DNA of 64,000 bases, taken from Egicoccus sp. AB-alg2 (GTDB taxonomy: Bacteria > Actinomycetota > Nitriliruptoria > Nitriliruptorales > Nitriliruptoraceae). The stretch is taken from contig NZ_JBGUAX010000002.1 of assembly GCF_041821065.1 (NCBI RefSeq), positions 186,001 through 250,000 on the forward strand, read 5' to 3'. Position 1 is the stretch's first letter; each line of letters begins with the position of its first letter. Shown piece after piece: positions 640 to 813 of this stretch. Under the pieces are notes generated by a model. It worked only from the letters and a program-made list of their open reading frames with translations, did no database searches and had not been told where the DNA came from. The position numbers and the translations under genes are program-made.

Positions 640-813
640 ATGCCAGAGCTGCCCGAGGTCGCCTCGTGCTCGGGGCGCGGCAGCTCGGACCCACCCGCCC
701 GCACGTAGGTTCGCCATGCCAGAGCTGCCCGAGGTCGCCTCGTGCTCGGGGCGCGGCAGCTCGGACCCACCCGCCCGCACGTAGGTTCGCCATGCCAGAG
801 CTGCCCGAGGTCG
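640..813 (+). repeat. 76-bp tandem duplication copying the start of mutM (two upstream ORFs)
   Basis: Two perfect 76-bp units (640-715 and 716-791) are followed by a partial third copy (792-813) that is the real beginning of mutM. Each full unit begins ATGCCAGAGCTGCCCGAGGT, the same bases as the mutM start, and encodes a 22-codon ORF beginning MPELPEV and ending with TAG (706-708 and 782-784). Each stop lies 7 nt before the next ATG. Because 76 is not a multiple of three, the three ATGs are in three different frames, and only the one at 792 continues into the enzyme. Confidence 0.9.

Follow-up and report, generated by a model that had tools for sequence, protein, structure and literature searches.

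The question raised by this locus is what becomes of a DNA-repair gene when copies of its own start come to lie in front of it. Two exact tandem units, each opening with the first bases of mutM, precede the gene in the window (the whole 64-kb stretch of DNA that was analysed). They could be a passive accident, an obstacle to translation, a regulatory device or a switch that tunes the mutation rate, and these possibilities are weighed below.

The repeat array and the mutM gene

Positions 636-711 and 712-787 are 76-bp units that are identical letter for letter. The initial annotation had described two exact 76-bp tandem units before mutM, each with a 22-residue ORF, and this content was found as described, with the first unit starting at 636 rather than at 640. 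A third, partial copy of 26 bp (CGCC plus mutM nucleotides 1-22) follows at 788-813, and the identity stops at 814. Tandem Repeats Finder gave the array a score of 356, compared with 81 or less elsewhere in the window. An exact duplication of 76 bp cannot be chance, and the array (two identical 76-bp copies plus 26 bp) contains exact tandem units that are able to slip. The features are as follows.

627-632, + strand: TATCGT, TANNNT-type -10 element of the probable ancestral leaderless mutM promoter, preceded by CGA (a CGN extension); 7 nt before ATG 640 and kept in relatives
636-711, + strand: repeat unit 1, 76 bp, 100% identical to 712-787
640-708, + strand: uORF1, from ORF translation, encoding MPELPEVASCSGRGSSDPPART, with stop TAG at 706-708
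662-711, + strand: 50 bp of non-mutM sequence in the unit, repeated at 738-787; neither the genome nor its relatives gave a convincing source
706-711, + strand: TAGGTT, comprising the uORF1 stop, an SD-like AGGT core 5 nt before ATG 716 (the anti-SD of the genome is standard) and a TANNNT match with a 4-nt spacer
712-787, + strand: repeat unit 2, 76 bp, identical to unit 1
716-784, + strand: uORF2, from ORF translation, encoding the uORF1 peptide in the next reading frame
782-787, + strand: TAGGTT before mutM, comprising the uORF2 stop, an SD-like AGGT core and a TANNNT match 4 nt before ATG 792, a spacer found in no relative
788-813, + strand: third copy, incomplete (26 bp), made up of CGCC and mutM nucleotides 1-22
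792-1625, + strand: mutM (fpg), 277 aa, intact, with complete Fpg domains (NF002211, PF01149, PF06831, PF06827, 1ee8)

Both upstream ORFs (22 aa plus TAG) encode the same peptide, and a Pfam search with that of uORF1 returned no match. In both units 7 nt separate the TAG from the next ATG, and the ATGs at 640, 716 and 792 lie in three successive, different reading frames. The first ORF therefore has the form of a uORF, being a short ORF of 22 codons at the predicted transcription start site with its stop near the next start. Overlooked initially was the TAGGTT that stands 4 nt before each internal ATG. It resembles TANNNT, and its AGGT is the complement of the anti-SD of this genome, in which the 16S end (GGATCACCTCCTTTCT) is standard.

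As the genome is a draft of 29 contigs and assemblers miscount exact tandem units, the true copy number could differ from two, being perhaps one or more than two. We consider an assembly or sequencing artefact of this kind decidedly improbable: the 178-bp array is within the reach of normal read pairs, and since the 50-bp insert is found in full nowhere else in the genome, local reads must account for at least one unit.

The protein encoded downstream scored 277 bits against NF002211 (cut-off 212), matched Pfam PF01149, PF06831 and PF06827, and aligned with Thermus MutM (1ee8) at an E value of 9e-59. It has the N-terminal, H2TH and zinc-finger domains and the Pro2-Glu3 start of an Fpg enzyme. 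Fpg enzymes have the N-terminal proline, next to the start methionine, as their catalytic residue, and translation of an active enzyme therefore has to start at 792; a longer in-frame ORF from GTG 666 exists and would bury this proline. Compared with a same-genus genome (G003), mutM had a dN of 0.11 and a dS of 0.51. These rates show purifying selection on the gene in the lineage and are silent on the time since the duplication.

Besides the mutM in the window, four further Fpg/Nei relatives are encoded in the genome. The rnc-smc neighbourhood is the usual place of actinobacterial mutM, and the homologue located there (L098 7837-8673, minus strand; G000:C6:352840-353670) begins (GTG)LELPEVE, therefore without the catalytic proline, and scored 171.7 against the Fpg cut-off of 212. 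The same start was found in G003 and in a further same-genus genome (G002), and the activity of this homologue may have been lost or changed in the genus. The second paralogue (P0004) scored 118 against the same cut-off, and the other two begin MPEGDTI and MPEGHTI and are Nei-like by eye. Judged by these starts and sub-cut-off scores, the mutM in the window is the strongest candidate for the principal 8-oxoguanine enzyme, and its expression therefore deserves testing.

The displaced promoter and the route to mutM

The main -10 element in Mycobacterium tuberculosis, where 22-26% of genes are leaderless, is TANNNT (PMC3898074), and a CGN extension of this -10 was described by Cortes et al. In 24 of 28 close relatives (the family, the order and near uncultured members), a TANNNT ends exactly 6 nt (9 cases) or 7 nt (15 cases) before the mutM start. 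TANNNT is rare, its frequency being just 3.2e-4 per position over the 800 kb sampled from the genome of the window. The four exceptions among the relatives were G002 (36 nt), both members of genus g3 (L023 and L024) and G010 (23 nt), while in the more distant families of the class the spacing was absent. Taking together the spacing in relatives, the rarity of the motif and its use in M. tuberculosis, the ancestral mutM of the family was very probably leaderless.

In the window, TATCGT at 627-632 sits 7 nt before ATG 640, a placement that is unlikely to be by chance given the rarity of TANNNT and that confirms the earlier observation that a leaderless-type -10 points at the first mini-ORF. The 6-7-nt spacing is thus found at ATG 640 and not at ATG 792, which has moved 152 bp from the conserved TATCGT. 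Since the relatives identify this element as the probable ancestral mutM promoter, the displacement of the gene from its promoter is well founded. A scan for sigma-70 promoters and terminators found nothing, and a genome-wide leaderless signal computed from crude ORF starts was too weak and was dropped.

Two of the exceptional genomes show other arrangements. In G002 (L006; G002:C5), of the same genus, the TANNNT 36 nt before the mutM ATG is accompanied by no obvious Shine-Dalgarno sequence, a departure from the leaderless layout. In G010, from another genus of the family, the TANNNT at 23 nt is followed by a strong GGGAGGTG Shine-Dalgarno, and mutM is Shine-Dalgarno-led, not leaderless. The mutM coding sequence of G010 also carries 3.1 copies of a 57-bp unit (L027 1297-1471; G010:C1), in-frame between the positions of residues 65 and 68 of the window protein, by which the protein is lengthened.

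An alternative is that the unit brought its own promoter, in which case TAGGTT (706-711 and 782-787) would drive leaderless or near-leaderless starts at 716 and 792, mutM would be expressed normally and the uORFs would be irrelevant. TAGGTT does fit TANNNT, which is rare in this genome, and A792 lies 7.5 bp from its centre, at the edge of the M. tuberculosis range in which the centre of the -10 lies 7-12 bp upstream of the start site (PMC3898074). However, its spacer is 4 nt, compared with 6 or 7 nt in all 24 leaderless relatives, and with a spacer of usual length the start would lie within the ATG or beyond it. Both parts of the hexamer also have another explanation, since TAG ends the uORF and AGGT forms an SD-like core. 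We therefore regard a promoter within the unit as unlikely, although it is the strongest competitor to what follows.

With the displaced promoter as the preferred reading, two extra mutM starts of 26 bp, each joined to a further 50 bp, would have been put between the leaderless promoter and the gene, and transcripts would begin at or beside A640. In mycobacteria, an RTG at +1 is necessary and sufficient for leaderless initiation (PMC4633059), so uORF1 should capture the ribosomes that formerly made MutM. These would initiate leaderlessly on uORF1 and terminate at 706-708, and mutM would be reached only via two successive termination-reinitiation steps. Restart could be aided by the AGGT core, which shares bases with each stop codon and, at a distance of 5 nt from the ATG, is predicted to pair with the anti-SD (ACCT). 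Translational coupling peaks at spacings of -4 to +3 nt and drops 3- to 10-fold towards +40 (PMC12548453), a range that makes partial reinitiation plausible at +7. As two such steps would be needed, a lower MutM output is predicted, probably below that of the relatives. The initial proposal that ribosomes must terminate and restart twice can therefore be retained as a deduction from the displaced promoter only.

Short upstream ORFs can also act as sensors, and translation of the 22-residue peptide could respond to a signal and so control mutM. Leaderless short ORFs do attenuate in mycobacteria (Canestrari 2020, cited in PMC13236596). However, the peptide has no run of regulatory codons and only one Cys, RNA folding (640-870 and single units) was no better than that of shuffled sequence, the terminator scan was empty and the unit is without conservation in relatives. 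A sensing attenuator is thus extremely improbable.

Recency and origin of the duplication

The initial annotation had pointed to the mutM upstream regions of related genomes as a place to look for variation. A DNA search found the repeat absent in 60 of 60 relatives, a pattern search for two MPELPEV starts 61-91 nt apart gave 0 hits in 395 other genomes of the phylum, and the upstream regions that were read for mutM genes of relatives had no repeat, so that this comparison did not reveal the repeat in any copy number. Within the genome itself, a survey of 40 stretches of 20 kb (~0.8 Mb) found approximately 10 further tandem repeats whose units measure 54-167 bp, mostly intergenic, three of which have exact registers of 60-91 bp.

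As the copies are identical, present in one genome only and accompanied by many tandem repeats of similar size, the array is probably a recent, private duplication that was not selected, with 'recent' being drawn from copy identity and absence in other species. A neutral recent duplication had been offered initially as an alternative, and it fits the evidence best. The whole explanation that we prefer, and hold to be reasonably likely, is a recent duplication that displaced a leaderless promoter and imposed serial reinitiation, lowering MutM, probably without selection.

The survey also returned repeats of other kinds. A tRNA-Val (TAC) has its 3' half in about three tandem copies with a 58-bp period (L090 7007-7200; G000:C2). 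The GGAAACC motif is common to intergenic repeats of 62-63 bp (L081 18535-18741, L103 18015-18174, L105 13825-13958 and L115 9228-9386), which may be one dispersed family.

The unit has two parts. While 26 bp correspond to the mutM start (CGCC plus 22 nt), no convincing source for the other 50 bp was found in the genome or in relatives, and the event was therefore not a simple tandem duplication. Three candidate sources were considered. Positions 657-679 are an exact 23-bp match to the start of sufD (G000:C1:499010-499032), but 23 bp was reached by 0.5% of random 55-mers (0.84 Mb), approximately 3% when scaled to the whole genome, and similar chance matches were present in many relatives. The sufD match was therefore not used, being at about chance level in a GC-rich genome. 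A possible descent from mutM codons 9-14 (TCGGGGCG-CGGCAGCTCG compared with TCGGTGCGCCGGCAGCTCG) was equalled by 4.5% of random genomic 50-mers, and descent from the upstream leader gave no signal. As a conjecture, a complex insertion at codon 8 could have re-copied the start, after which slippage between the 26-bp repeats made the second unit.

Copy number and comparison with known systems

Identical tandem copies are prone to slippage, and slippage between the copies could delete units. In silico, arrays of 1, 2, 3 and 4 units all had the same layout, with terminated 22-codon ORFs followed by an intact mutM, while removal of both units gave TATCGT, 7 nt, ATG and mutM, exactly the ancestral layout. 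As copy numbers 1-4 share one arrangement, the layout would change in kind only if every copy were lost. The effect could therefore be graded, and an array that lost both copies would revert cleanly, with leaderless mutM restored exactly.

The array could also be a selected contingency locus, in which slippage alters the copy number and so tunes MutM and the mutation rate. The two identical copies are slippage-prone, and the MutM in the window was the only scanned homologue above the Fpg cut-offs. There are also precedents in the repeats before fpg1 in M. tuberculosis, which vary among isolates with a modest link to fpg1 mRNA (PMC2734929), and in mutL repeat switching in Salmonella (PMC2955026). 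However, the repeat is in one genome only, with no variation seen in its copy number, the other species searched are without it, repeats of similar size are common here and mostly away from gene starts, and copies 1 to 4 give the same layout. A contingency locus is very unlikely on these grounds, and the initial suggestion of a tuning switch for mutation rate is unsupported, with the repeat in none of the related genomes searched. Equally little credence can be given to a more specific form, in which serial decoys from mutM's own leaderless start act as a reversible dial, independent of the M. tuberculosis case, with zero copies restoring full expression.

The closest precedent is VNTR3239 (ETR-F), a locus of the M. 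tuberculosis complex that lies between rnc and fpg1 (Rv2924c) and was described by Olsen et al. 2009 (PMC2734929). It consists of exact 55- and 79-bp tandem repeats that end at the fpg1 start codon and are absent from other mycobacteria; its length varied among isolates and was linked to modest differences in fpg1 mRNA (PMC2734929). Tuning of fpg/mutM expression by repeat number is therefore already in print. Both cases are actinobacterial and confined to one lineage, with exact repeats running up to the start codon of the main fpg gene and relatives without them. In contrast to the rnc-fpg1 location, the array here lies between a divergent gene and mutM, elsewhere in the genome, and no duplication of the fpg start has been reported at VNTR3239. 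Variation and expression were measured there, whereas the present array is known from one genome sequence. The difference in the present case is that the repeat copies the gene's own start and would make serial decoy ORFs on a leaderless message.

As in the leaderless uORFs of mycobacteria (Shell et al. 2015, PMC4633059), the first ORF is short and ends just before the annotated gene, but here it is copied from the start of the downstream gene and is present twice. The Salmonella mutL switch (Chen et al. 2010, PMC2955026) is similar in that the repeat number at a repair gene could alter mutability. However, the mutL repeats lie within the coding region, where they switch the protein on and off, whereas here the protein is never changed.

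The locus offers a clean natural case in which copies of a leaderless gene's own start codon have come between the gene and its promoter. It could serve as a direct test of how efficiently leaderlessly entering ribosomes terminate and restart in an actinobacterium. If the repeat number proves variable, this would be a second actinobacterial lineage, unrelated to that of VNTR3239, with repeats at the start of its main 8-oxoguanine repair gene.
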